Source: Candidatus Delongbacteria bacterium (GTDB lineage: Bacteria; Delongbacteria; UBA4055). Taken from it: a DNA stretch of 62,073 bases. This document shows positions 28,427-41,389 of this stretch, one piece after another (position 1 is the first letter of the stretch; each line of letters starts with the position of its first letter). The notes under the pieces are model-generated. The model was not told where the DNA came from. It ran no database searches and worked only from the letters and a program-made list of their open reading frames with translations. Location: positions 1 to 62,073 of the forward strand of contig JAQICF010000196.1 of the NCBI GenBank assembly GCA_027858795.1. Direction: 5' to 3'. Made by a program: the position numbers and the translations under genes.

Positions 28427-29155
28427 ATGAAATGTTTTGTTTTATCAATACTTTTCTTAGTATTTACGAGTTGTGTAGTTCAAAAATATGTACCACCACC
28501 TCCAGTTACGGTTATGCAACCAAATACGATAAAATGGATTCCTTTGGTGAGAGGTGGCACTATTTCATATAACGAGGGTTATTTTAAACATCCAAATGAA
28601 ATGTATTTGAACAATGGGATGATTTTATCAAAAAATGGTTGGACAATTCTAAAAGAAGTAATAGAGCCATTTTCAACAAAATCTAGTGAAGTAATTATCA
28701 ATGCTTTTTTAAGATATAGTTTTGGTTATGATAAGGTTGATAAAGTAATCAAATTTAGACCACTTCAAGACTTTTCGAGTCCTTATTTAGAAAAATCATT
28801 CATATTGCTTAAAGGATTTATTGAGAATAATAAAGTTTCGGGATCTATTATGTTTAACCATCATGGAAAGTCTTGGTTATTTGCAAAAACAATAAAGATT
28901 GTAGCGGATGATTTTACTTGGGAGTCACCTGAATTAAACTTTATGAGAGAAAATGGAAGTGACTATATCGTAGAATATACTTTTATGGATTTAGAAGATA
29001 AGGATTCAAGAATTCTATTAGACAATATTATTAAATCTAAAGAAACGATTATAAGATTTAGAGGTGATCAATATTATTCAGATTTTATTGTTAGTGACAG
29101 AATGAAATCAGATATAAAAATAATGTTAAAAGCGATTGATATTATAAATGAATAG
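28427..29155 (+). CDS. Predicted lipoprotein of unknown function
   Basis: A 242-residue protein with a type II signal: MKCFVLSILFLVFTSC places the lipidated cysteine at residue 16, followed by VVQKYVPPPPVTV, a proline-rich tether. The mature part (about 220 residues) is mixed alpha/beta with no motif I recognise; segments such as KTIKIVADDFTWESPELNF and VEYTFMDLEDKDSRILLD look like a compact beta domain. The ATG follows GGGAG by about 9 bp. It is the first gene after the repeat island at 28138-28343, and the ApeA-like gene starts 33 bp after its stop, so both may share the promoter at 28353. Confidence 0.65.
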   Translation: MKCFVLSILFLVFTSCVVQKYVPPPPVTVMQPNTIKWIPLVRGGTISYNEGYFKHPNEMYLNNGMILSKNGWTILKEVIEPFSTKSSEVIINAFLRYSFGYDKVDKVIKFRPLQDFSSPYLEKSFILLKGFIENNKVSGSIMFNHHGKSWLFAKTIKIVADDFTWESPELNFMRENGSDYIVEYTFMDLEDKDSRILLDNIIKSKETIIRFRGDQYYSDFIVSDRMKSDIKIMLKAIDIINE

Positions 29156-29188
29156 ATCAGATAAAAATGGAGAAGTAGAGGAATAGAA

Positions 29189-30520
29189 ATGACTGAGAAA
29201 TTCGAACTAATAGGTAAATGGTGGTTTCACGATAATCAAGATAAATCCTATTGCGGTTTATTAAAGTATGAACCGATAAAAGGTAGTACATTAAAAATTG
29301 ATTTGGAAAATTGGAGTACTTGGAAAAGTGAACTTCATTCTGAGGATTATATCGTTCATGGTACTTCAATAAATAAAAAAATCACAATGCTAAAAAATCA
29401 AAATTTGACAAATTCGGAAATTTTAATACTGGGGAACAAGCATCTAAATTCAAGAGAGTTAAATTTCAAAAGCTATGAAGTAGAAATTGCATATCTTAAC
29501 AACTGGTCGTCAATTGAATTATTTAATGACGATAAAACATTAAACAATCGATTACCTCAACTTGTATCAAATATTAATGATACTTTTTCTATAACACTAA
29601 ATCAAAGAATTAAAACGGATAGACCTAATAAAGAAGCTTGGTCGGTTGAATATAGACCATACCTTCAATTTCGTTATAAAGAGGGAAAAAATTATTTTGA
29701 TTTTAAAAAAGATTTATTGCATTTCACAAATTTTATCAGCCTTGCTGTAGACGGGGGTGGGTATTTTGAAAGCATTAGAGCCTATAATGATGATGATACT
29801 TTTGAAATAGTAGAAAAAAGGTATTTTGGTGCTAAAGATGCAAAAGAGAACACATACAATGAGCTTTTCGACTTAAAAGATATTATCAATGAAATGGGAT
29901 TTGATAAAGCGATTAAAAATTGGTACGTAAAAGATAAAGAATTATTAGGTTCATTTAGTGGTTTGTTTTTTGTTTCTCAATATAGTAAGAACTTATTAGA
30001 ATTTGAATTTCTATGCTTGGCTCAAGCTTTAGATTCATTAACAACATATTATATTAACGAAGAAGAAAAAAATAATCATAACATTAAAAATCATTTACCA
30101 CCAAAAGAATTTGATAAATTAAAAGAAGAAATTATATTATCAATTGAATCGGAGGATCACAAAATGTGGTTAAAAGATGCATTAAGGAATGATGTGTCTT
30201 TTAAAAAAAGAATTAATATAATCCTAAATAAGTATCAGAAGATATTAAAGATATCAAATAAGAAGAGCTTTGCTACTTTCATTATTAAAACGAGAAATGC
30301 TATATCACATGGGAGTCATTTGTATTCCACTGACTCAGAAGTTAAAAAAGGTAAAGAACTTGTCGAATTATTTTATGGTGTAAAAATGATTTTAACAACT
30401 GTAATGCTAAGAATAATTGATTTTGACTATGATAGTATTAAATCTAAATTATCAAGATTGTGTTATTATAAAGAAATTTTGAATGGAAAAATTAAATTTA
30501 AAAGCAACTCGCAGGAATAA
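29189..30520 (+). CDS. ApeA-like HEPN-domain protein, putative anti-phage nuclease
   Basis: A 443-residue cytoplasmic protein. The N-terminal region (ELIGKWWFHDNQDKSYCG, LKYEPIKGSTLKIDL) has the look of the ApeA N-terminal domain, which starts with a GxWW and a G-x-L-x-Y pattern. The C-terminal third is a helical HEPN domain with the RNase signature R369-x4-H374 in KTRNAISHGS and a preceding helix LEFEFLCLAQALDSL. ApeA proteins are single-gene abortive-infection-type defences in other bacteria; here the activity is predicted, not shown. Preceded by an AGAGGAATAGAA ribosome site. Confidence 0.7.
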   Translation: MTEKFELIGKWWFHDNQDKSYCGLLKYEPIKGSTLKIDLENWSTWKSELHSEDYIVHGTSINKKITMLKNQNLTNSEILILGNKHLNSRELNFKSYEVEIAYLNNWSSIELFNDDKTLNNRLPQLVSNINDTFSITLNQRIKTDRPNKEAWSVEYRPYLQFRYKEGKNYFDFKKDLLHFTNFISLAVDGGGYFESIRAYNDDDTFEIVEKRYFGAKDAKENTYNELFDLKDIINEMGFDKAIKNWYVKDKELLGSFSGLFFVSQYSKNLLEFEFLCLAQALDSLTTYYINEEEKNNHNIKNHLPPKEFDKLKEEIILSIESEDHKMWLKDALRNDVSFKKRINIILNKYQKILKISNKKSFATFIIKTRNAISHGSHLYSTDSEVKKGKELVELFYGVKMILTTVMLRIIDFDYDSIKSKLSRLCYYKEILNGKIKFKSNSQE

Positions 30521-30560
30521 ATTATTTTAAATAAAGAAAATTTCTAATGATTACAAGATT

Positions 30561-30586
30561 GTAGGCGATGATTCCCATTCGTCCCC
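30561..30586. repeat. R2 palindromic repeat with a mutated left arm
   Basis: GTAGGCGATGATTCCCATTC then GTCCCC: the right arm and loop equal the copy at 28318, whereas the left arm has diverged, so the hairpin is weaker. A promoter follows 7 bp later. Confidence 0.8.
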
Positions 30587-30593
30587 TTTTGTT

Positions 30594-30622
30594 TTGTAAA
30601 ACAAATATATAAGTATTATATT
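30594..30622 (+). promoter_or_regulatory. Repeat-associated promoter of the 30.7 kb lipoprotein gene
   Basis: TTGTAA, 17 bp, TATATT, then GTAA, in a flank almost the same as at 25262 and 28353. The gene starts 43 bp downstream, with CAGGTG before the ATG. Confidence 0.65.
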
Positions 30623-30665
30623 GTAACAACCAACCAAATACTGATAAATAAAAACAGGTGTTTAG

Positions 30666-31883
30666 ATGAAAAAATTAATCTTATTTCTTATGATAATGCT
30701 GTTTGCAGGATTGATATTTGTATCTTGCAGCGATGATACAGTAGGTGCAAACTCGTCAAGCCCAATTACTTTTTATAAAACTTATGACAGTGATGATCAT
30801 AATTACGATAGAGGGTATTCAGTTCAGCAAACAATAGATGGTGGCTATATAGTTACTGGTCGTAAAGGATCATCCTCAAATACAACGCTTAATTATGATA
30901 TGATTTTACTTAAGACAGATATAAACGGTACAAAAGAATGGTTTAAAGCTTACGGTGCTGATTCTAGCGAAGTAGGGATGGCTGTTATACAAACAATCGA
31001 CAGCGGATATGTAGTTTTGGGATATACCTTTTCACTCGGAGCTGGTGAATACGATATTTGGCTAGTTAAGTTAGATGTTGATGGAAATGAAGAGTGGAAT
31101 AAAACATTTGGTGGTGCTAGGACCGATATAGGGAATTACATTCAGCAAACTACGGATAATGGATTTATTATTGTTGGGACAACTCAATCTTTTGAGGATG
31201 GGTATAGAAATGTTTGGTTAATTAAGACGGATGAAAATGGTAACGAAGAATGGAATCAAATTTACGGAACTTCTGATCAGGAAAGAGGTAAGTGTGTACA
31301 ACAAACTGCAGACGGTGGTTATATAATTACTGGTAGTAGAGATGTTTTTGATGTTTATACCGGAAGTGATAGTGATGTTTTATTATTGAAAACAGACAAT
31401 AGTGGTGCCATTGAATGGGAAAAAGTTTTAGGAGAAGAAGATAATGATGAATATGGCAATTCAGTTATTGAAACATCTGATGGGGGATTTATAATAGCAA
31501 GTACTAATACGGTATTTTCATATGTAGAGGGATTGTGGATTCTTGGAACAGACTCAATCGGTAATGTAATATGGTCACGTGAAAAGGATTCGTATCCTGA
31601 TGATCTAATAGGAAACTATATTAGTCCGACTACGGATGATGGTTTTGTTATTGTTGGCAAGGTGGAGTCAAATTCTTATGGGGGTGTATCAGATATAATA
31701 TTATTGAAGTATGGTAATAATGGGTCTTTTAAATGGGATCAGTTATACGGAGAAGAGATTGGAGCTGAATATGGTTATTCTGTGCAGGAAACTACAGACT
31801 ATGGTTTTATTATTACAGGCAACGAAAATATATTTGATATTTTGTTAATTAAAACAGATGAAAATGGTAATGTTGGGGAATAG
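30666..31883 (+). CDS. Lipoprotein with seven beta-propeller-like repeats
   Basis: A 405-residue protein with a type II signal (MKKLILFLMIMLFAGLIFVSC, lipidated cysteine 21) and acidic residues directly after it. The mature part is seven repeats of about 50 residues, each built around a core such as GYSVQQTIDGGYIVTG, GNYIQQTTDNGFIIVG or GYSVQETTDYGFIITG followed by a D-x-x-L-L-K-T-D-x-x-G stretch. Seven such units suggest a seven-bladed propeller. There is no T9SS tail. Repeats of this sort are common in surface lipoproteins of FCB-group bacteria and probably serve binding. The next gene starts 1 bp after the stop, on the same transcript. Confidence 0.8.
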   Translation: MKKLILFLMIMLFAGLIFVSCSDDTVGANSSSPITFYKTYDSDDHNYDRGYSVQQTIDGGYIVTGRKGSSSNTTLNYDMILLKTDINGTKEWFKAYGADSSEVGMAVIQTIDSGYVVLGYTFSLGAGEYDIWLVKLDVDGNEEWNKTFGGARTDIGNYIQQTTDNGFIIVGTTQSFEDGYRNVWLIKTDENGNEEWNQIYGTSDQERGKCVQQTADGGYIITGSRDVFDVYTGSDSDVLLLKTDNSGAIEWEKVLGEEDNDEYGNSVIETSDGGFIIASTNTVFSYVEGLWILGTDSIGNVIWSREKDSYPDDLIGNYISPTTDDGFVIVGKVESNSYGGVSDIILLKYGNNGSFKWDQLYGEEIGAEYGYSVQETTDYGFIITGNENIFDILLIKTDENGNVGE

Positions 31884-31884
31884 A

Positions 31885-32763
31885 ATGACGAAGAATAAAG
31901 TTATTGTACACAGAGTAAACACTTGGTCAAGTTTTACAAAACTTATTGATGAATTGAATTATAAAGTTATAAAACCGGGGCATATTAGACATTCTGGTGG
32001 AGCTATCTTTCGTGGTCATTCAGATCCTAGTTGGAAACTAGAGTCTAAATTAGAAAGAAACCTAGCATTAAGAGTGAGTAAAGAGCAAATAAATCCAATT
32101 ATAAATTTGAAAATACATAATGGAAAAGAATGGTACGATGAAACCTGTGAAAAAATTTTAAAGAGATTTGAAGAAAATGTAAACCAATTACCTGAGTACA
32201 TAAAATTAGAAACTAAAGATGATTTATGGGCACTTGGAAGACATCACGGATTACTAACCCCATATCTAGATTGGAGTACTAATCCATATATTGCTACTTT
32301 TTTTGCATGTATAGACATTTATAAAAAATTTGAAATCGGTGGAATAAACGAAAGTGGCCTTAAAAATAAGAAGGTTATAATATGGAAGTTAAATATTTGG
32401 GATGATCTACTAGATAATAGCGAATTTGACATAATGGTGCCAAGTTCTAAAATTGGATCAAGGATGAATTCACAGCAGGCACTATTTACAATTCTCAAAA
32501 CAACAAAATTTACTGATGTGGAATCTTACTTAATTGATAGAAAAATTGCCTTTTATCTTGAAAAATTTATTTTACCATACAAAATTATTAGAGAAGCTAT
32601 AAAATCACTAAATACAATGGGATTTGATATATTTAAATTGTATCCCGATTATACCGGTGCTGCCGAGCAAGCAAATATTGACAAATGGCAAATTCCATTT
32701 AACTACTCAATAGAAGAATTTAGTAAGGAACAAACAAAGAATGGGTCTTCCCATTTACAATAA
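31885..32763 (+). CDS. FRG-domain protein
   Basis: A 292-residue cytoplasmic protein with an FRG domain: AIFRGHSDPSWKLESKLERN carries the name-giving Phe-Arg-Gly, and DDLWALGRHHGLLTPYLDWS plus NPYIATFFAC are the other two conserved segments. FRG-domain proteins are of unknown biochemical activity but are often found in phage-defence or accessory regions. I chose the ATG at 31885, 1 bp after the lipoprotein stop, with TTGGGGAA upstream; an in-frame ATG at 31858 would lie inside that gene. The position close to an ApeA-like gene supports an accessory role. Confidence 0.75.
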   Translation: MTKNKVIVHRVNTWSSFTKLIDELNYKVIKPGHIRHSGGAIFRGHSDPSWKLESKLERNLALRVSKEQINPIINLKIHNGKEWYDETCEKILKRFEENVNQLPEYIKLETKDDLWALGRHHGLLTPYLDWSTNPYIATFFACIDIYKKFEIGGINESGLKNKKVIIWKLNIWDDLLDNSEFDIMVPSSKIGSRMNSQQALFTILKTTKFTDVESYLIDRKIAFYLEKFILPYKIIREAIKSLNTMGFDIFKLYPDYTGAAEQANIDKWQIPFNYSIEEFSKEQTKNGSSHLQ

Positions 32764-32854
32764 GATTAACAAACTTAGATTACACGGGTTCTTTGATTTT
32801 TGTAAATGCTCCCATGCCTTTCCCCACAACGGGTTGAAAATATGTCACACGACA

Positions 32855-32877
32855 CCCATTTTCCCTACCTATTTTAT
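32855..32877. repeat. Degenerate R2 right half
   Basis: CACCCATTTTCCCTACCTAT followed by TTTATTTGTGAAT aligns with the loop, right arm and promoter flank of the R2 copy at 28318. Further upstream, at 32806-32835, are two CGGGTT motifs and GCTCCCATGCCTTTCCCC, which may be remains of another repeat. Confidence 0.45.
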
Positions 32878-32906
32878 TTGTGAATTCCATATTTTTATAT
32901 TATATT
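32878..32906 (+). promoter_or_regulatory. Probable promoter of the pqqD-like operon, same design as the R2 promoters
   Basis: TTGTGA, 17 bp, TATATT, then ATAA. The spacing and -10 equal those at 25262, 28353 and 30594. The first gene starts 105 bp downstream. Confidence 0.5.
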
Positions 32907-33010
32907 ATAATTCCTAAGCATATTTACATTGGTCAAATCAAAAGAAATAAATTGAACTTAAAACAGAATATTTTCGTTTACAGTGAAATAATAGAATATT
33001 TGGAGATAGC

Positions 33011-33253
33011 ATGGACAGAGATAAATTATCGGTATTAGCCATAAGTGACAGCGGATTCATTTTTGATCCGGTCACAGGTCATTCATATACTGCAAATGCA
33101 ACTGGATTGAGAATTTTTGAATTGCTTAAAGAAAATAAGACCGAAGATGAGATCAAAAGTATTCTGCTGGAAGAATTTGATACAACGGAAGATGAAGTCA
33201 GTGTAGATGTGGATGATTTTATTGAGAATTTAAAAAAATATTTTCTGGTTTAA
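33011..33253 (+). CDS. PqqD-like peptide-binding protein (RiPP recognition element fold)
   Basis: An 80-residue protein matching the PqqD family by pattern: an N-terminal beta part (SGFIFDPVTGHSYTANATG), then ATGLRIFELLKENKTEDEIK, ILLEEFDTTEDEVSVDVDDF and a last helix IENLKKYFLV. PqqD-type domains bind leader peptides and present them to modifying enzymes, though some homologs act in other roles. I see no obvious precursor-peptide gene nearby. The ATG follows TTGGAGATAGC. It is the first gene of an apparent operon with an ATP-grasp ligase and a PLP decarboxylase, so these three may act on one substrate. Confidence 0.8.
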   Translation: MDRDKLSVLAISDSGFIFDPVTGHSYTANATGLRIFELLKENKTEDEIKSILLEEFDTTEDEVSVDVDDFIENLKKYFLV

Positions 33254-33265
33254 CAATCGGACCCC

Positions 33266-33292
33266 GTAGGGGAAGGCTCCCATGTCTTCCCT
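33266..33292. repeat. R2 palindromic repeat, GGGAAGG variant, copy 1
   Basis: GTAG then arms GGGAAG (33270-33275) and CTTCCC (33286-33291) around GCTCCCATGT. The same variant occurs 1.1 kb on, at 34406, before the next gene of the operon. Confidence 0.85.
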
Positions 33293-33309
33293 AATCGGAT
33301 AAAAAGAAG

Positions 33310-33345
33310 ATTGCCACGGATTTTGACAAAATCCTCGCAATGACA
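33310..33345. repeat. R5 palindromic repeat
   Basis: ATTGC (33310) and GCAAT (33337) flank the inner arms GGATTTT (33318-33324) and AAAATCC (33328-33334), followed by GACATAGGAAAG; the AGGAAAG is the ribosome site of the ATP-grasp gene. Confidence 0.75.
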
Positions 33346-33359
33346 TAGGAAAGAACAAC

Positions 33360-34400
33360 ATGAAAATAGTCGTAGCAGTCAGCGGTATAAACGCAGTGGA
33401 TAACCCAGGTCCCGGTACAGGGATTTGTAAAGCATTGAAAGAAAGTGATCTTGACATAAGAACTATCGGATTGGCTTATGATGCAATGGAGCCCGGTGTT
33501 TATATGGACAACATTATTGATAAAAGTTATATCATGCCATATCCATCCGGCAGCAGGGAAGCTTTTATCGAAAGGATCAAACATATTAATTCAGTAGAAA
33601 AAATAGATGTTATAATTTCAGCACTTGATGCAGAGCTTCCTATATATATGGATATAGAGCCGGTCCTTACAGAGATGGGTATAAAAATGTTGATCCCTAC
33701 TAAAGAAATGTTCAAAACAAGAGATAAGCTTAGATTAAAGGAATTGGCAGAGAAGATCGGAGTAAAAGCACCCGAGTACAGAAGCTGTACTTCTATCAGA
33801 GATCTTCATGATTCAACAGAGAAAGTTGGATTTCCATGTATGGTAAAAGGTCCGTTCTACGAAGCTTTCAAAGCAAATAGCATAAGTGAAGCGGAAGACT
33901 ACTTTCATAAGATAGCTATGGCATGGGGATATCCTATCATCGTTCAGAAGTTCATTACAGGTGATGAATATGATGTGGTCGGTTGCGGAGACGGAAAGGG
34001 AAGTGATATAGGTGTTTTTGCGATCAGGAAAATGACAATTACTAAACTCGGTAAGGTTTGGAATGCGGTCAGCATAAAGAATGAAAAACTCATCGAAGCA
34101 ACCCGAAAGGTCGTAAAAGGTCTATCGTGGAAAGGTGGATTTGAGTTTGAAGTTCTTGTCGAAAGTTCAACTCAGGATATATATGTACTTGAGATCAATC
34201 CGAGATTTCCGGCATGGGTTTATTTTGCGGCAGGATGCGGTATAAATCTTCCCGAGAGAATGGTGAAACTTCTGCTGGATAAGGAATATGAAACACATTC
34301 CAATTACGACAGCGGAAAATTAATGATAAGATTCACAAATGAAATGATCAAAGATATAAAGGATTTCGAACAAATTTCGACAACAGGCGAAACGAAATAA
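33360..34400 (+). CDS. ATP-grasp ligase of the PqqD-like cluster
   Basis: A 346-residue CarB/PurK-like ATP-grasp protein. The pre-grasp domain (MKIVVAVSGINAVDNPGPG, DVIISALDAELPIYM) is followed by the ATP-grasp lobes: VGFPCMVKGPFYEAFKA, IIVQKFITGDEYDVVG, and VLEINPRFPAWVYFAAGCG, whose ENPRF-type metal-binding stretch is intact. Such ligases join a carboxylate to an amine through an acyl phosphate. The ATG has AGGAAAG upstream. Being next to a PqqD-like protein suggests a peptide substrate, whereas the neighbouring decarboxylase suggests an amino acid; sequence alone does not decide. Confidence 0.8.
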   Translation: MKIVVAVSGINAVDNPGPGTGICKALKESDLDIRTIGLAYDAMEPGVYMDNIIDKSYIMPYPSGSREAFIERIKHINSVEKIDVIISALDAELPIYMDIEPVLTEMGIKMLIPTKEMFKTRDKLRLKELAEKIGVKAPEYRSCTSIRDLHDSTEKVGFPCMVKGPFYEAFKANSISEAEDYFHKIAMAWGYPIIVQKFITGDEYDVVGCGDGKGSDIGVFAIRKMTITKLGKVWNAVSIKNEKLIEATRKVVKGLSWKGGFEFEVLVESSTQDIYVLEINPRFPAWVYFAAGCGINLPERMVKLLLDKEYETHSNYDSGKLMIRFTNEMIKDIKDFEQISTTGETK

Positions 34401-34405
34401 AATCC

Positions 34406-34433
34406 GTAGGGGAAGGTTCCCATGCCTTCCCGG
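34406..34433. repeat. R2 palindromic repeat, GGGAAGG variant, copy 2
   Basis: GTAG then arms GGGAAGG (34410-34416) and CCTTCCC (34425-34431) around TTCCCATG. It fills half of the 59 bp gap between the ATP-grasp and decarboxylase genes. Confidence 0.85.
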
Positions 34434-34459
34434 GAGCGAAAACCAAAGAAGGAAACACA

Positions 34460-35812
34460 ATGAAAAAAGAATATATTAAACCGTACATTAAGAAGCAGAC
34501 AGCCGGAATTATGAATAAATTCGGTGTTTCTTATAATAAAGGTCACAGAGAAGATATTTTAGGTATTCCTATTGGAAATTTTACAGATAAATTCGGATCC
34601 CCCGTATTCGTTCTCAGTGAAAAGCTTATCAGAGAAAGATATAGAAAAATATATTCACACTTTTCAAGTAAATATCCTAAAGCTAAGATGTCATGGTCGT
34701 ATAAGACAAATTATTTGGATGCTGTATGCTCAATAATGCATCAGGAAGGAGAAACTGCTGAAGTTGTTTCAGACTTTGAATATCAGAAAGCGAGAAGGCT
34801 CGGTGTTCCCGGGAATAAGATAATATATAATGGTCCGTATAAACCACTGGAATCATTGAAGGTTGCTTTTGAAGAAGGGGCTATAGTCAATCTTGATAAT
34901 TTTGATGAAATAATTAAAGCTGAGGAAGCTGCAAAGGCAATAAATAAGAAAGCAGCAGTCGGTATCAGAGTAAATATGGATACCGGAGTATATCCTCAGT
35001 GGTCAAGGTTCGGGTTTAATTTAGAGAATAACAGTGCTTTCAATGCCGTAAAAAGGATCGACCACAGTGAAAATCTTTACTTGGAAGGAATTCATTGTCA
35101 TATAGGAACTTTCATGCTTGATCCGAATGCGTACAGAGAAGCTGTGAAAAAAGTCGTTGCTCTGATGAGAAAGATCGAGGATGAATTTAAAATATCAATA
35201 AAATATTTGGATTTCGGTGGCGGTTTTCCATCAATGAACAAACTGAAAGGAACATATTTGCCTCCTGAAGTTTCAGTTCCACCCGTAGAAGAATTCATTG
35301 ATGCAGTGGCAGATACATTACTGGAGGAACTTAAACCGGATGAATATCCGGATGTTTACCTTGAAACCGGCAGATCGATCATTGATGAAGCAGGCTGGTT
35401 GATAACTTCTGTGGATGCAGTGAAAAGGCTTCCTGACGGGACAAAAAGTTATATTATTGATGCAGGTGTAAATTTATTATATACTTCAACCTGGTATAAT
35501 TATAAGGTCGAAATTGACAGAGAACTTCACGGGGCTTATGAAAATTCAGTGATCTACGGACCTCTCTGTATGAACATTGATGTCGTTGTTGAAAGTGCGT
35601 TTTTACCACCTTTACCAAGAGGTACAAGGCTGATATTGTCACCAATGGGTGCTTACAATGTTACTCAGTGGATGCAGTTCATAAGATACAGACCTGCAGT
35701 TGCAATGATAATGGAAGACGGTTCTCTTGAGGAGATCAGAAGACCTGAAACTCTTGATGATGTGGTCGGACCGGAAAGAATACCGGAAAAATTAAAGAAA
35801 TTTGAGCTATAG
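34460..35812 (+). CDS. PLP-dependent decarboxylase of the LysA/ornithine-decarboxylase (fold type III) family
   Basis: A 450-residue alanine-racemase-fold enzyme. The PLP lysine is K82 in SWSYKTNYLDAV; the barrel shows the usual VSDFEYQKARRLG, GIHCHIGTF and DFGGGFPS (phosphate-binding) motifs, and ETGRSIIDEAGWL. The C-terminal domain has GPLCMNIDVV with the conserved active-site cysteine C370 and then GAYNVTQWMQF, where true diaminopimelate decarboxylases have a GAY followed by a different pattern. I therefore call the family but not lysA. The extended N-terminus (about 40 residues) before GNFTDKFGSPVFVL is also unusual. Its stop lies 9 bp before the next gene. Confidence 0.85.
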   Translation: MKKEYIKPYIKKQTAGIMNKFGVSYNKGHREDILGIPIGNFTDKFGSPVFVLSEKLIRERYRKIYSHFSSKYPKAKMSWSYKTNYLDAVCSIMHQEGETAEVVSDFEYQKARRLGVPGNKIIYNGPYKPLESLKVAFEEGAIVNLDNFDEIIKAEEAAKAINKKAAVGIRVNMDTGVYPQWSRFGFNLENNSAFNAVKRIDHSENLYLEGIHCHIGTFMLDPNAYREAVKKVVALMRKIEDEFKISIKYLDFGGGFPSMNKLKGTYLPPEVSVPPVEEFIDAVADTLLEELKPDEYPDVYLETGRSIIDEAGWLITSVDAVKRLPDGTKSYIIDAGVNLLYTSTWYNYKVEIDRELHGAYENSVIYGPLCMNIDVVVESAFLPPLPRGTRLILSPMGAYNVTQWMQFIRYRPAVAMIMEDGSLEEIRRPETLDDVVGPERIPEKLKKFEL

Positions 35813-35821
35813 GTATTTTCA

Positions 35822-37897
35822 ATGCACGAAAAAAATAAAATGATCGTATTATTTGAAGATCTGACGGGTTCATTCTCGAATTTGATCTTCATCAGAAGTA
35901 AAATAGTCGGGCTTCTGCTCTTTGCCTGTACGCTTTTCAATCTGAATATTGCATCTCAGGGAATTATCTCTCTGGTAGTGGCAGTCCTATTTGCAAGGTT
36001 CATTGGCATAAAAAAGGATGATCCGATAAATAAATTGTACAGTTACAACGCATTACTGACAGGTTTCGCGATAGGATTTATTTTCAAAGTGACCTATCTT
36101 TCAGTAATTCTTACATTTGGAATGAGCATAATGACGGTTCTTCTGACCTATACTTTAAGCTCCGTTCTATATAATTTATTCAAGCTGCCGGTGTTGAATA
36201 TCCCATTCACGATCTCAGCGACAATAATATATCTATCTTCGAGTAAATACAGCAATCTGGTAGTCGATTCATTCTATAAGCAGGATTATTTTAATATAGA
36301 TATCATTCCTGCATATATCCAGGGTTTCCTCAGAGCATCAGGAATATTGGTGTTCATGCCGTACGATATTATCGGAATTGTCGTACTTCTAGCGATACTG
36401 CTATATTCACGCATAACCTTTTTTGTCACAATTTTTTCATATTACACAGGGATCTTATTTCTGGCACTCTTGAAAGGGAGTCTTCCTTTAGCTTTTGCTG
36501 AGATATCATCATTTAACTTTATATTAGTCGGCATTGCTCTGGGTGGAATGTTCCTGATTCCGTCTAAAAGGACATATCTACTGACTTTTACAGGAGTTAT
36601 GGTGTCAGTATTCATTATAGATGCAACATCGGTTTTCTGGGTATCTTTCGGCATACCCGTATTCACACTTCCGTTCAATTTGACGGTATTATTATTTATC
36701 TATGTTCTCGGCAGTGTAAAATACCCAATGATGAACTATACTTCTCTAGATCAACCTGAAAGATCACTGGTAAATTTCTTGAACTACAAAAACCGTTTTG
36801 ACTGGATAACTCCGTCTATAAATCTCCCTTTCATGGGATGCTGGACAGTATATCAGGAGTTTGACGGGGCGTGGACACATAAAGGTGTGTGGAAATATGC
36901 GTATGATTTTGTGATTGAGGATGATGAGGCAAAAACTTATAAAGGCACGGGCTCAGAGAAAGAAGATTTCTACTGCTTTGGTAAACCGGTAATATCTCCG
37001 ATAGATGGAACTATTGTTGAGGTATGTAACGAACTGGAAGATAACGAACCTGAGCAGGTCGATAAGGACAACAACTGGGGAAATTATGTAATAATCTCTT
37101 CTCCAATAGGATATTATATTGAAATATCTCACCTGAAAAAAGATTCTATCAAAGTAAAAAGAGGAGATTCCGTCACAAAAGGAACACCATTGGCGGAATG
37201 CGGTAATTCAGGATACTCACCTCAGCCCCATTTACATATTCAGCTGCAACATTCTCCACATATCGGTTATGCAGGTTATGAATTCAAGTTCAACAGCTTA
37301 AAGTTAGCTGACAGTGGTGAAATAGATCCTGATTTATTAGTCAAAGGCAACAAAGTAATTCCACTTACAACTTCAAAGATTGTCAGCAGAAAATTCCAAT
37401 TCATACTGGATGAAGAGTTTAATTACGATATTTATGAAAACGATGAAAAAGCAAGTGAGCTGAGTTTTATAGTCAAAATGGAGTCTGATGGTACTTATTA
37501 TTTCTCTGACACTGAAGATAACAAACTTTACTTCGGCAAAGACAAAGACAGGTTCGTGTTTTTTAAATATGCAGGAAATAAGCAGTCGTATCTCAGATAT
37601 TTCATGTTAGGATTACCATCTCTTTCGCTAACAGATGAAGAAAAATTATCATGGGAAGAATATTTACCGGATAATTTACTCGAATCAAAACTGCCTAAAA
37701 TATTAAAGTCATTTTACCACTCTGCAGATACTACTATAGGTCGATACTTTAAAACAGGGAGCAATGTGATCGAAGGAAAGATCTCAAAAAATAAGCTAGT
37801 TCTTTTTGATACTGAATTAACTCTTTGCGAGGTGAAAGGTATTAAAGATATTATAATCAACACAGAGAATAAAAAGATTTGGATGACAAAAGTATGA
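35822..37897 (+). CDS. Urea-transporter-like membrane domain fused to an M23 metallopeptidase domain
   Basis: A 691-residue fusion. Residues about 10-310 are a urea-transporter (UT) family domain with the duplicated half-repeats YNALLTGFAIG / FNFILVGIALG and IPFTISAT / LPFNLTVL. Residues about 330-480 are an M23 (LytM-like) domain with the zinc ligands H353 and D362 (THKGVWKYAYDF) and H472 in PHLHIQ. A beta-rich C-terminal part of about 200 residues follows. A UT channel passes small neutral molecules such as urea; M23 enzymes cut peptidoglycan cross-links. Why they are fused is unknown. The TGA overlaps the next start (ATGA). Confidence 0.85.
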   Translation: MHEKNKMIVLFEDLTGSFSNLIFIRSKIVGLLLFACTLFNLNIASQGIISLVVAVLFARFIGIKKDDPINKLYSYNALLTGFAIGFIFKVTYLSVILTFGMSIMTVLLTYTLSSVLYNLFKLPVLNIPFTISATIIYLSSSKYSNLVVDSFYKQDYFNIDIIPAYIQGFLRASGILVFMPYDIIGIVVLLAILLYSRITFFVTIFSYYTGILFLALLKGSLPLAFAEISSFNFILVGIALGGMFLIPSKRTYLLTFTGVMVSVFIIDATSVFWVSFGIPVFTLPFNLTVLLFIYVLGSVKYPMMNYTSLDQPERSLVNFLNYKNRFDWITPSINLPFMGCWTVYQEFDGAWTHKGVWKYAYDFVIEDDEAKTYKGTGSEKEDFYCFGKPVISPIDGTIVEVCNELEDNEPEQVDKDNNWGNYVIISSPIGYYIEISHLKKDSIKVKRGDSVTKGTPLAECGNSGYSPQPHLHIQLQHSPHIGYAGYEFKFNSLKLADSGEIDPDLLVKGNKVIPLTTSKIVSRKFQFILDEEFNYDIYENDEKASELSFIVKMESDGTYYFSDTEDNKLYFGKDKDRFVFFKYAGNKQSYLRYFMLGLPSLSLTDEEKLSWEEYLPDNLLESKLPKILKSFYHSADTTIGRYFKTGSNVIEGKISKNKLVLFDTELTLCEVKGIKDIIINTENKKIWMTKV

Positions 37898-39300
37898 GAT
37901 CGAAGCTGATTTATTTACTATTTATATTATTACTGAATAATATATTATTTTCCACTGAGATTGAGGAGCTGTTAAAGCAGGGAAATGAGCTATATTTTCA
38001 AGGTGATATAGAGAAAGCCCTAAACAAATTTTATGAAGCTGAAAAACTTGACAGATCAGATATTAGACCCAAGGAAGGCGTTTATAATTCATGCATCTAT
38101 TTAGGTAAATATAAAGTAGCTAATAAATATGCAAAGAAACTATATAGGTTATCAAATTCTGATATTAACACTGACAGGCTTGTTTATTCAGATGCACTAC
38201 TGGGAAGGACAGGAAATGCAAAGAAATTTTTAAGTTTGCAGGAAAATTACGAGAGAAAAAAATATTTAATAACATTATCAGGATGGGGACTATTCAATAA
38301 CGGATATTACATTGAGTCAACTGAGTGGTTTGGAGCTGCTCAAAAAAATGGTTTTGTAAACAAAGATGTTTCTTATGGATATTCGTTATCAAAAGATAAA
38401 TTGAGGTCGAAGAAAAAGAAATTTGATATATCAATTTCTCCGTTCAGCTACAGTAAAGATGCAAATTTAAGCGGCGGATTGAATTTGAATTTTAATTACA
38501 ACTACGGATACTTTGATAAAAGGTATGATCTGAATTTTATTATGCAATTCACAACAATGAACCCCGAAAGAGAAGCTGAGAATCCTGATTTTTACGGGGA
38601 TTTAGGGCAATATGAGATATTTTGGCAATACAGAAATCTTCTTTCTAGTAGAAATTCTTTTTACACAGCAGGTAAATTAAGTTTTTGTACAAATGATTAT
38701 GTGAAATTTTCATTAATGGGATTAGGTGGAGCAAGATACGATCTTATGGATCATTTTTTAGTCGATTCATATATTTCAGGTTCATTTATAGAGTATGCGT
38801 ATTATGATATGTTTGATCTGAAACAACCAGGGTTTGCTAAATACAAAGAATATTATAACTCACTGTTTTCACTGCAGTCAACTACAAATTTAACTTATTA
38901 CTCAAAATGTTTTTACATTAATGGAGAGATATTACTCTCAAAACTCTTAGGTTCTACATATTTTGCAGATGTGAATGAATTTCAAGACAGAGAAGATCTT
39001 CCTGACGATGTAGTCGATTCAGAAGATATTGAATATTTCTATACTGCACGGGCAGGAATAACGACAAAGCAGGTAGATGTTTTCGGCAGTTATTCTGAAG
39101 GCAATAAATTCATGATGCATTCTGAAGGTGGCAGGTATTTAAATACAACTGAATTCGGATTTATAAATGGATTTAGCGGTGGTTTTACAGTTAATAAATT
39201 GTTTGATAAATGGGTCATATCATATATATTTACAAAGAAAAATTATGAAGAATATGATGTAATAACAAACACATTGGTAGCCAGTTATAGTTGGAAGTAG
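37894..39300 (+). CDS. TPR protein with C-terminal outer-membrane beta-barrel (YaiO-like)
   Basis: A 468-residue secreted protein. The signal peptide MRSKLIYLLFILLLNNILFS is followed by TPR-type helices to about residue 165 (LLKQGNELYFQGDIEKALNK, NYERKKYLITLSGWGLFNNG), then a barrel-like half with many alternating aromatic strands, ending LVASYSWK with an aromatic near the C-terminus. I use the ATG at 37894, which overlaps the stop of the fusion gene by 4 bp. The stop codon TAG is formed by the first bases of an R1 repeat. It may assemble with the UT/M23 protein in the envelope, judged by coupling only. Confidence 0.75.
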   Translation: MRSKLIYLLFILLLNNILFSTEIEELLKQGNELYFQGDIEKALNKFYEAEKLDRSDIRPKEGVYNSCIYLGKYKVANKYAKKLYRLSNSDINTDRLVYSDALLGRTGNAKKFLSLQENYERKKYLITLSGWGLFNNGYYIESTEWFGAAQKNGFVNKDVSYGYSLSKDKLRSKKKKFDISISPFSYSKDANLSGGLNLNFNYNYGYFDKRYDLNFIMQFTTMNPEREAENPDFYGDLGQYEIFWQYRNLLSSRNSFYTAGKLSFCTNDYVKFSLMGLGGARYDLMDHFLVDSYISGSFIEYAYYDMFDLKQPGFAKYKEYYNSLFSLQSTTNLTYYSKCFYINGEILLSKLLGSTYFADVNEFQDREDLPDDVVDSEDIEYFYTARAGITTKQVDVFGSYSEGNKFMMHSEGGRYLNTTEFGFINGFSGGFTVNKLFDKWVISYIFTKKNYEEYDVITNTLVASYSWK

Positions 39301-39321
39301 AGACGCAATACTTTGCGTCTC
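39300..39321. repeat. R1 palindromic repeat, copy 3
   Basis: Arms GAGACGCAA (39300-39308) and TTGCGTCTC (39313-39321), loop TACT. The GTAG before the arm supplies the TAG stop of the upstream gene, so insertion may have set the present C-terminus. Confidence 0.9.
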
Positions 39322-39350
39322 ATGACAAACATAAAAAGGAGAAAAAATAG

Positions 39351-39962
39351 ATGAAATACAAATTTATAACCTTATTGATAATAACTGTAAGTTTATTTGC
39401 AGAATTAAGTTTCAAGGATATTCAAAATGCATACACCAGTTCATATTCTTACGAAACTGCTCAAAAGTACGATAAGGCTATTTCAAGCATGAATAAGATC
39501 ATAACTACTTATCCAAACGGTTATACTGTTAATTACAGGCTCGGTTGGTTGTATTATCTTGCAGGAAATTACGCTAATTCCGTAAAGCATTTGAATGCTG
39601 CATTATTGGTCTATCCATATTCTGTCGAAGCTTTGAATACTGTAAACTTAGTCAATGTTGCAAGGCTGGACTGGGATAAAGTCGAATCTCAATCAATTAA
39701 TATTTTCAAGATAGATTATTATAATTATTATGCAAATTACTGGTATTCTGTTGCTTTGATCAGGCAGAAAAAATACGATCAGGCAATCAAAGTAGCCGAT
39801 AAAATGCTTGCCGTTTTTCCTACAAATGTTACTTTTTTAAATATTCTTGCTGAAAGCTATTATCTTAATGGTAATACTGCGGATGCTTTGAAGGTTTTTG
39901 AGTCTGTGGTTATTCTGGATAAGGATAATGAGACAGCGAAGTATTATTTAGGAAAGAAATAA
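39351..39962 (+). CDS. Small periplasmic TPR protein
   Basis: A 203-residue protein with signal peptide MKYKFITLLIITVSLFA and about four tetratricopeptide-type repeats (YDKAISSMNKIITTYPNGYT, NYRLGWLYYLAGNYANSVKH, YYANYWYSVALIRQKKYDQA, LNILAESYYLNGNTADALKV). TPRs bind peptide ligands or partner proteins. The ribosome site AAAAAGGAGAAAAAA is strong. It lies 50 bp after the barrel gene with an R1 repeat in between and 14 bp before the symporter gene, so it belongs to the same run. No enzyme motif. Confidence 0.8.
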   Translation: MKYKFITLLIITVSLFAELSFKDIQNAYTSSYSYETAQKYDKAISSMNKIITTYPNGYTVNYRLGWLYYLAGNYANSVKHLNAALLVYPYSVEALNTVNLVNVARLDWDKVESQSINIFKIDYYNYYANYWYSVALIRQKKYDQAIKVADKMLAVFPTNVTFLNILAESYYLNGNTADALKVFESVVILDKDNETAKYYLGKK

Positions 39963-39976
39963 TCTAAAAGACTAAT

Positions 39977-41389
39977 ATGAACATCTATATATTTATTATA
40001 ATATCGTATTTCGCCTTAGTTATCTTAATATCTTTTCTAACCAAAAAGATGGCAAGTAGATCTACTTCTGATTTTCTTGTAGCAGGAAGGAATCTCGGAG
40101 TAGTTGTTTGTGCTGTTGTAGTGGCAGCAGAGTGGCTCGGTGGTATGAGTACAATTGGTGTCAGTGAGCAAGCTTTCAACACAGGAACTCTCAGACCGAT
40201 ACTTTACAATATAGCAACTGCCCTTGGAATGGTAATAATTGGTTTCACGGTAGCATCTCATTATAGAAAGAAAGATGTACACACGGTTAGTGAAATGCTC
40301 AAGTTTTTATTTGGTGATAACGTAAGAACTGTTTCAGCAATATCATTTCTATTGGCCTATATAACCTTAGCCTATGTTCAATTGCAAACTTGTGCTGGTC
40401 TCTTTGGACCATTACTAGGTCTGGATTGGATAACTTCGGTAATTATATCTTCAGTAATAATAACGATATATACGTATATCGGTGGGATGCATGCTCTTGC
40501 TATAACCGGAGTAATCCATGTTGTAGTAATGTTCTTAGGAATAGGGATAGCAACATTCATTGGCATGGATAAAGTGGGAGGTTTCGAAGCGCTACAAACT
40601 TCGTTAATGGCAACAGGAGCTCCTGAAAATTTCTATAATCCTTTCAGTGGGGGTATGAGTAAAGCCTTCAGTCTTCTTCTTGGAGGAATTTTAGGTGGAA
40701 TGGCCGGACAGGCAAGTATTCAACCTATATTTGCTGCAAAAAATGCTATCACAGCTAAAAGAGCAGCAATAGTTTCAAGTATGATAATAGCTCCATTCGG
40801 AATAATGGTGGCATTCCTCGGTCTTATCGCTAAGACAGGTGTATTCTTTGAAATTTCATCAATTACTAATCCTAAGATGGTACTTTCAACTTTACTGACC
40901 ACACCAGAATTTATACATCCAGTATTAGGAGGAATAGCCTTAGCAGGAGTACTAGCAGCCATTCTTTCAACTGTAGGGCCTGTGAATTTTGCAATTGTTA
41001 CCATAGCCACAAAAGATATTTATCAGGGAATTATACATAAGAAAGTTGATGATAAAAAATTGCTAAAAACTGCAAAGAGGATGGTTCTTCTAGTCAATGT
41101 CGTAACTATTCCATTAGCAATATTCATTCACGGTGCTATTCTTGAAGCGGCCTATGTATCTTATGCTATCAGAGCAATTGGAGCGATCGTTATAATTCTG
41201 GGTATTTATAAAAGGAATTGGATAACTTCTTCAGGTGTAGTTCTAGCTTTTATCGGTGGAACAATAACTATATTTGTGTGTATTCTTGCAAATAAGATGG
41301 GATGGTTCTCAGTAGATAAAACCTATGGAGCAGTAATTTCAGCAATAGTTTTTATTCTTATTGGGAATCTGTGGGAGAAGTTCCGATAA
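39977..41389 (+). CDS. Sodium:solute symporter family (SSS) transporter
   Basis: A 470-residue integral membrane protein with 12-13 predicted helices. Family features are the N-terminal STSDFLVAGRNLG (the typical S-x-x-D-F-x-x-A-G-R-x-L-G pattern), AAEWLGGMSTIGVSEQAF, TIYTYIGGMHALAITGVIH and LAAILSTVGPVNFAIVTIA, which contains the conserved Na2-site serine/threonine helix. Substrates of the family range from proline and sugars to short acids and urea, so none can be named. It is the last gene of the run starting at 33011. Its 3' end overlaps the convergent membrane-protein gene by 32 bp. Confidence 0.88.
   Translation: MNIYIFIIISYFALVILISFLTKKMASRSTSDFLVAGRNLGVVVCAVVVAAEWLGGMSTIGVSEQAFNTGTLRPILYNIATALGMVIIGFTVASHYRKKDVHTVSEMLKFLFGDNVRTVSAISFLLAYITLAYVQLQTCAGLFGPLLGLDWITSVIISSVIITIYTYIGGMHALAITGVIHVVVMFLGIGIATFIGMDKVGGFEALQTSLMATGAPENFYNPFSGGMSKAFSLLLGGILGGMAGQASIQPIFAAKNAITAKRAAIVSSMIIAPFGIMVAFLGLIAKTGVFFEISSITNPKMVLSTLLTTPEFIHPVLGGIALAGVLAAILSTVGPVNFAIVTIATKDIYQGIIHKKVDDKKLLKTAKRMVLLVNVVTIPLAIFIHGAILEAAYVSYAIRAIGAIVIILGIYKRNWITSSGVVLAFIGGTITIFVCILANKMGWFSVDKTYGAVISAIVFILIGNLWEKFR

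Follow-up and report, generated by a model that had tools for sequence, protein, structure and literature searches.

A conserved cassette of a PqqD-type recognition protein, an ATP-grasp ligase and a decarboxylase bearing a leader-like motif, with a urea-transporter/M23 fusion

The window analysed here is a 62,073-nt stretch of DNA, contig JAQICF010000196.1 of the Candidatus Delongbacteria bacterium assembly GCA_027858795.1. Its list of open reading frames (ORFs) bears out the gene positions and the seven-gene, co-directional layout that a preliminary description had given for 33011-41389. Six of the seven genes look like one cassette: a PqqD-family protein, an ATP-grasp ligase, a LysA-fold pyridoxal phosphate (PLP) decarboxylase (DEC), a urea-transporter (UT)/M23 fusion (UT-M23), a barrel-like protein and a tetratricopeptide repeat (TPR) protein. 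The PqqD protein is a discrete recognition element (RRE) of the kind known from ribosomally synthesized and post-translationally modified peptides (RiPPs), and the motif gripped by such elements is found on the N-terminus of DEC. The features are the following:

33011..33253, + strand: PqqD-family discrete RRE, 80 aa, PF05402
33360..34400, + strand: ATP-grasp ligase, CarB/PylC-like, 346 aa, ATP-grasp_3 at 35.6 bits
34460..34525, + strand: leader-like N-terminal tag of DEC, residues 1-22, with the motif [YW]xxPx[LVIFAM]
34460..35812, + strand: LysA-fold PLP decarboxylase DEC, of the FigC/BtrK kind, 450 aa
35822..36796, + strand: UT channel domain of UT-M23, PF03253/UT at 176.1 bits
36812..37336, + strand: M23 metallopeptidase domain of UT-M23, Peptidase_M23 at 50.8 bits
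37337..37897, + strand: C-terminal beta-rich domain of UT-M23, strands confident in the structure model
37879..39300, + strand: TPR plus barrel-like protein, fast evolving, weak TPR matches in Pfam, barrel by eye
39351..39962, + strand: TPR protein, TPR_2 PF07719 at 68.5 bits, signal-like N-terminus by eye
39977..41389, + strand: solute:sodium symporter (SSS), outside the cassette, SSF at 139.2 bits, missing at the syntenic place in the related locus L018

Recurrence of the cassette and the RRE motif on DEC are the strong computed facts. The two nearest relatives are Candidatus Delongbacteria metagenome-assembled genomes (MAGs), with ATP-grasp proteins 96 and 95% identical to that of the window; in two further relatives the identity is 80-81%. 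Among 386 genomes, chosen for their relationship to one of the Delongbacteria MAGs, DEC is present in 28 (E ≤ 1e-76; six more, with weaker lysA-level matches of 1e-60 to 1e-69, were left uncounted) and UT-M23 also in 28 (E ≤ 2e-40), the two occurring together in 26. DEC without UT-M23 is seen in G006, where the contig stops just after DEC, and in G143, which has a UT protein without M23. A UT gene, with or without M23, adjoins DEC in 23 of the 28 genomes that have it (a single gene intervenes in G340), and UT-M23 lies on a different contig from DEC in four (G310, G117, G005 and G020); G006 allows no decision. In the phylum of G023, DEC is found in 39 of 121 genomes (27 newly read, 3 read earlier, 9 unread), with UT-M23 inside the flank read in 22 of the 27 newly read loci, and the phylum of G143 has DEC in 7/144 genomes. 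Among the best 120 homologues of DEC or UT-M23 per search, source names include Cloacimonetes, Desulfobacterales, Magnetomorum, Magnetococcales, Chitinivibrionales, Planctomycetota, Rhodothermales, Persephonella, Desulfurobacterium, Thermovibrio and Phorcysia.

The order PqqD-ATP-grasp-DEC is kept in all 55 loci in which it can be read on the contig (26 + 25 + 4), a degree of clustering beyond chance; these counts, like the others, are of partly related genomes and not of independent events. One of these loci, L105, has an additional gene between ATP-grasp and DEC. Left out of the count are G108, G013 (contig ends), L119 and L120 (in these two the contig starts at DEC), and also L141 and L146, though in both ATP-grasp is directly upstream of DEC. 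A neighbourhood check had been proposed for the trio, and the three genes do co-occur in other genomes, across distant groups. Among the papers searched, none was found to describe the cassette.

The aligned DEC proteins begin MKKxYxKPxIxxxxxGxMNKFG. The core of this tag, [YW]xxPx[LVIFAM], is present in 58/58 loci with a readable DEC start (those of L063 and L119 are not readable) and in 117 of the 120 homologues listed, the three misses being cut starts; without M at the last position the number is 116, and a strict form (Y..P, spacer, G..NK) is found in 111. L106 has a natural W in place of Y, an accepted variant since the motif described for discrete lasso-peptide RREs, [Y/W]xxPx[L/V/I/F/A], allows both (PMC13381572). 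By comparison, [YW]xxPx[LVIFA] occurs in the first 30 residues of only 5 of 312 other ORFs (100 aa or longer) from the 29 mapped loci, which contain G002 twice, as do the 312 ORFs, and in one of 49 ORFs of the window, that one being DEC. Profile matches of DEC start past the tag, at position 26 for FigC and at 29 or later for diaminopimelate (DAP) decarboxylases.

The small protein at 33011 had been called PqqD-like; with 49.6 bits against a PF05402 gathering cut-off of 23.4 it is a true member of this family and not of an unrelated small-protein family. Its nearest solved chains are lasso-peptide RREs, TfuB1 (4.7e-10) and TbiB1 (9.8e-9). Assignment to a narrower PqqD family was rejected in each case: the lasso PqqD chaperone families NF033530 and NF033536 give 34.7 and 23.8 bits (cut-offs 70 and 80), PqqD of PQQ biosynthesis (TIGR03859) 16 bits (equivalog cut-off 46), and the HPr-rel-A, SynChlorMet and GeoRSP families 26.7, 27.8 and 17.9 bits (cut-offs 35, 100 and 100). 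According to that 2026 paper (PMC13381572), D70 of LppB hydrogen-bonds the leader Tyr, N33 fixes a kink at the leader Pro, which F74 and V35 sandwich, and the N33A exchange almost abolishes complex assembly. In a HMMER alignment N33, D70 and F74 fall on N29, D66 and F70 of the PqqD protein (LppB chain numbering offset by 18, as derived from the residues named in that source). N29 and D66 are present in 52/52 cassette PqqD proteins and F70 in 50/52; Asn and Asp are also seen by eye in four further readable PqqD proteins. The gripping Asn is not universal among lasso RREs, as TbiB1 has another residue there. PqqD thus keeps the residues that grip YxxP, and DEC carries the motif that they would grip; that the two bind is a prediction. 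In 19 of 27 genomes the cassette PqqD is the sole PF05402 match, so that no other RRE is in sight there; seven have two to four matches, and the cut contig of G013 has none. Since the N-terminus of DEC carries the recognition motif, the peptide bound by PqqD most likely belongs to an enzyme encoded in its own operon.

DEC matches Orn_Arg_deC_N (115.4 bits) and Orn_DAP_Arg_deC (45.9 bits) in Pfam. Its best solved relative is an N-citrylornithine decarboxylase (7kh2, 6e-89), and BtrK (7ru7) is matched as well (6.5e-44). The PLP lysine, His, glycine loop, Glu, Arg, catalytic Cys and Tyr are kept in 121/121 DEC proteins (roles mapped by alignment from PMC7857480), and Met371 stands beside the catalytic Cys370 in all of them. 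The same source groups FigC in a clade with SbnH, AcsE, MccE and BtrK, all acting on conjugates; BtrK decarboxylates a glutamylated carrier protein (PMC7857480). Sharing with FigC the Met that follows the catalytic Cys, DEC appears FigC/BtrK-like and would belong with the clade-2 decarboxylases of alanine racemase fold; as such it should decarboxylate a conjugated amino acid. FigC H357 and R387, proposed in PMC7857480 to hold the citrate or citryl part, align with Ile373 and Gln403 of DEC. These residues are not kept, so the acyl part of the DEC substrate should differ from citryl.

The structure model of the ATP-grasp protein (predicted local distance difference test, pLDDT, 91.3) matches 2PN1 best; CarB ranks near the top of the fold matches, PylC and the amino-acid ligase RizA lower. 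Residues E264, E278, N280 and R282 are invariant in an alignment of 15 rows. Given these fold relatives and a FigC/BtrK-like DEC, the likely chemistry is a ligation and then decarboxylation of the conjugate.

In UT-M23 the UT domain scores 176.1 bits against a PF03253 cut-off of 25, and 91.9 against the equivalog cut-off of 274.6 for urea_trans_yut (TIGR03441). The M23 domain scores 50.8 bits against 28.7 (PF01551), and five residues, which we take to be its zinc and catalytic residues, are kept in all 25 M23-bearing rows. Among the matches listed, homologues of UT-M23 bear only automatic names. Barrel-like ORFs follow UT-M23 as one similarity group in 8 loci (7 genomes) and, in 7 others, as a second group whose members are some 290-320 aa long; the TPR protein is present in 19 of the 29 mapped loci (18 of 28 genomes). 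Given a UT channel, a barrel-like protein and a TPR protein with a signal-like start by eye, it is plausible that the product crosses or acts in the envelope.

Some members of the cassette vary. The UT-M23 ORFs of L054 and L055 (523-526 aa) are too short for the C-terminal beta-rich domain. A 352-aa lipoprotein-like gene without Pfam match lies between DEC and UT-M23 at L055:6952-8010 (G340), and at L105:9715-10500 (G005) a protein with a Por secretion tail (PF18962) is encoded between ATP-grasp and DEC.

The observed recurrence and order of the genes, the DEC tag, the matching grip residues of PqqD, the intact catalytic residues and the near-complete co-occurrence of DEC with UT-M23 point to a cassette of two modules, a reading that we hold probable by a narrow measure. 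In the first module the PqqD-type RRE would bind the leader-like tag and so bring DEC together with the ATP-grasp ligase; a complex of the three proteins is well supported as a prediction. In the reaction order that we infer, ATP-grasp would join an amino acid to an acceptor and DEC would then remove the alpha-carboxylate of the conjugated amino acid, following the logic of BtrK on its carrier or of FigC on N-citrylornithine. In the second module, the UT channel and its fused M23 peptidase, together with the barrel-like and TPR proteins, would release or move the product, or act with it in the envelope; the putative substrate and product, the transport role and the side of the membrane on which M23 would act are the most conditional parts of this scheme.

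Several observations weigh against it. UT-M23 occurs without DEC at the cut-off in G267 and G222 (both on short contigs) and is outside the flank read in 5 of the 27 loci of the G023 phylum. The substrate specificity of ATP-grasp is not readable, and the membrane charge pattern of UT-M23 leaves both sides open for M23. Among solved relatives of DEC a DAP decarboxylase comes second (5.8e-68), and clade 2, that of FigC, also includes DAP decarboxylases (DAPDCs) and D-ODC (PMC7857480). A 48-aa tag-bearing protein, P0247, is found on 11 contigs of up to 51361 bases and could be a real stand-alone tag protein. The NKFG half of the tag is conserved beyond the needs of RRE binding, so that docking alone does not explain it, and the tag may instead be an N-terminal arm with a structural role.

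The conservation of the NKFG half could mean that DEC is a self-carrying enzyme. PqqD would then present the tag, ATP-grasp would aminoacylate the tag lysine, with the amino acid attached for example through its side-chain carboxylate, and DEC would decarboxylate its own tethered cargo; a membrane-tethered M23, or a Sir2 deacylase in one variant, would free the product for the UT channel. If so, a leader peptide would have been turned into a swinging arm. Beyond the RRE-binding core, K-[FYHL]-G is kept, with the lysine present in 57/58 loci (by eye in divergent rows). PylC uses the epsilon-amine of lysine, and the ATP-grasp protein shows a sub-threshold PylC-like N-domain match besides having PylC in its fold list. 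That BtrK acts on carrier-tethered cargo (PMC7857480) fits as well. The variant with SIR2 is found in G143 and G523 (L107 and L146), where ATP-grasp genes are in tandem, UT is without M23, the NKFG half of the tag is altered with YEKPx[IF] kept, and the gene after UT encodes SIR2 (PF02146, 148.6 and 136.6 bits). This suggests that changes in the tag's second half go along with changes in the ligase and in M23, though, as the two genomes are of one phylum, the variant may be one event. However, the lysine is Val in L061 and Arg in P0190, and it is displaced or lost in P0240. We consider a self-carrying DEC unlikely.

An ordinary RiPP pathway has in our view the same small chance. Here PqqD would present a precursor encoded elsewhere to ATP-grasp and DEC, and the tag would mimic a leader so as to seat DEC. 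PqqD proteins normally serve precursors, MccE, from the clade of FigC and BtrK, has a microcin C intermediate as its substrate (PMC7857480), and P0247 might be a stand-alone product. However, none of the small ORFs near the cassette is common to all the relatives set against the window (L018, L019, L020, L064 and L065), in a comparison of neighbourhoods and not a genome-wide precursor search. PqqD and ATP-grasp are 9 bp apart in two relatives, and L020 and L064 have no complete ORF of at least 12 codons in their upstream gaps. Two short ORFs straddling the PqqD start, 32880-33038 (+) and 32938-33075 (-), are matched in L018, the latter weakly also in L065, and a 13-residue ORF upstream on the - strand recurs in the window, L018 and L019. 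As precursors these were rejected: in other relatives (all frames, eight loci) the shared ORFs are broken by stops, so the matches are read as DNA conservation among close kin. Other matched short ORFs fall inside coding genes. A protein database search gave 8 matches to short tag-bearing proteins among 15 candidates; by eye all eight look like DEC starts, cut or running into another frame, and seven are on short contigs, the longest being of 356-4218 bases, the eighth being P0247.

The preliminary description had seen no precursor gene and no radical SAM partner, and this stands: no convincing precursor gene lies nearby in the relatives compared, and the cassette genes include none for a radical SAM protein. 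Likewise, a Pfam scan of the seven proteins of 33011-41389 found no B2 peptidase, lasso cyclase or precursor, and no acyl or phosphopantetheine carrier protein domain was found in such a scan of the cassette proteins.

DEC might also be a lysine or polyamine enzyme, that is lysA or an ornithine/arginine decarboxylase, in an amino-acid or urea-nitrogen unit. Its homologues are named diaminopimelate decarboxylase or alanine racemase in their sources, the solved DAP decarboxylase ranks second after 7kh2, a urea-channel homologue is next door, and 8/9 genomes of the window's phylum are without lysA above the cut-off. The view that DEC is not an evident lysA nevertheless holds: it scores 200.5 bits against the curated cut-off of 297.9 (TIGR01048), no DEC exceeds that cut-off in 27 genomes, and 11 of these genomes carry a distinct gene scoring above it, for which reasons the assignment to lysA was rejected. 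Moreover, Met371 stands at the place of the residue that contacts the side-chain amine in lysine/ornithine decarboxylase (L/ODC), arginine decarboxylase (ADC) and DAPDC (roles from PMC7857480), and the leader-like tag would be left unexplained; this reading is very unlikely. No better are the prospects of a tag that is a structural arm of the DEC dimer, its likeness to RRE leaders being accidental: the motif is short and N-terminal and the tag continues straight into the enzyme fold, but the motif is in every readable locus and in few other ORFs, stands beside an RRE with invariant N29 and D66 wherever the neighbourhood is readable, and precedes the start of the FigC and DAP decarboxylase profile matches.

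The cassette counts six genes; the seventh, the SSS symporter, which had been counted as a member of the unit, was rejected by synteny. L018 is the closest syntenic relative, its downstream genes being 73-90% identical to those of the window, and there the TPR gene is directly followed by the convergent gene that in the window sits beyond the symporter. As the symporter is lacking at this place, it lies outside the cassette; a close SSS relative (a piece) is found near the cassette in one other of the 29 mapped loci, L063, two ORFs from TPR. On the other side, four genes at 28427-32763, between a 933-aa protein and PqqD, are absent from L018. They include an ApeA-like HEPN protein (29189-30520, PADLOC PDC-S58) and an FRG-domain protein (31858-32763, PDC-S15), and the set looks like a small defence insert. 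The window and its close relatives resemble one another in the AT-rich stretch 32811-33010 that lies upstream of PqqD, a TATATTATA-like run within it being common to a wider set of relatives; the stretch is possibly the cassette promoter.

Among 38 records of plasmid relatives of UT-M23, none has a single place covering 80% of the protein. For the three plasmid regions examined, two haloarchaeal and one of Thermus, an incomplete gene table lists no PqqD, ATP-grasp or decarboxylase. Their proteins (L069, L070 and L071) have the same unusual M23 domain, 34-41% identical, without UT and with hydrophobic N-terminal segments by eye; archaea are without the usual peptidoglycan substrate.

RREs serve as a means of finding RiPP pathways through their precursor peptides. 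The cassette is a conserved RRE system without a precursor nearby, its recognition sequence being on a tailoring-type enzyme. If PqqD binds the tag, RREs would also be parts for enzyme assembly, and genome mining based on RREs would have to include large proteins in its search for leader motifs. The cassette further places the UT-M23 fusion in a concrete setting and makes its function directly testable, starting from the three-protein core.

Each part of the cassette has counterparts in known systems. LPxxTxPF is the urea transporter signature. Like dvUT and UT-B, UT-M23 has the UT fold over about 310 residues and LPxxTxPF-like motifs, but it is fused to M23 and a beta-rich tail and falls below the urea_trans_yut cut-off; the Thr place of its first motif is taken by Asn, Ser, Ala or Thr, and its second motif varies in distant members too. 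DEC resembles FigC/FslC, its best solved relative, in the Met beside the catalytic Cys, whereas it scores 212.7 bits against a cut-off of 500 (NF041039) and differs at the places of H357 and R387. In butirosin biosynthesis, BtrJ is the ATP-grasp ligase that loads the carrier of BtrK. DEC shares the LysA fold with BtrK, whose amino acid is held by that carrier, yet the cassette has no acyl carrier protein match and an RRE and a tag instead. The closest parallels are the lasso RRE-leader pairs (TfuB1/FusB1, TbiB1, PbaB1) and LppB-LppA, with a discrete PF05402 RRE and a [Y/W]xxPx[hydrophobic] motif, and in LppB also the same gripping Asn, Asp and Phe. Unlike the lasso systems, the cassette has no B2 peptidase or lasso cyclase match among the proteins scanned, and its motif is not on a precursor peptide but on the N-terminus of a 450-residue decarboxylase.

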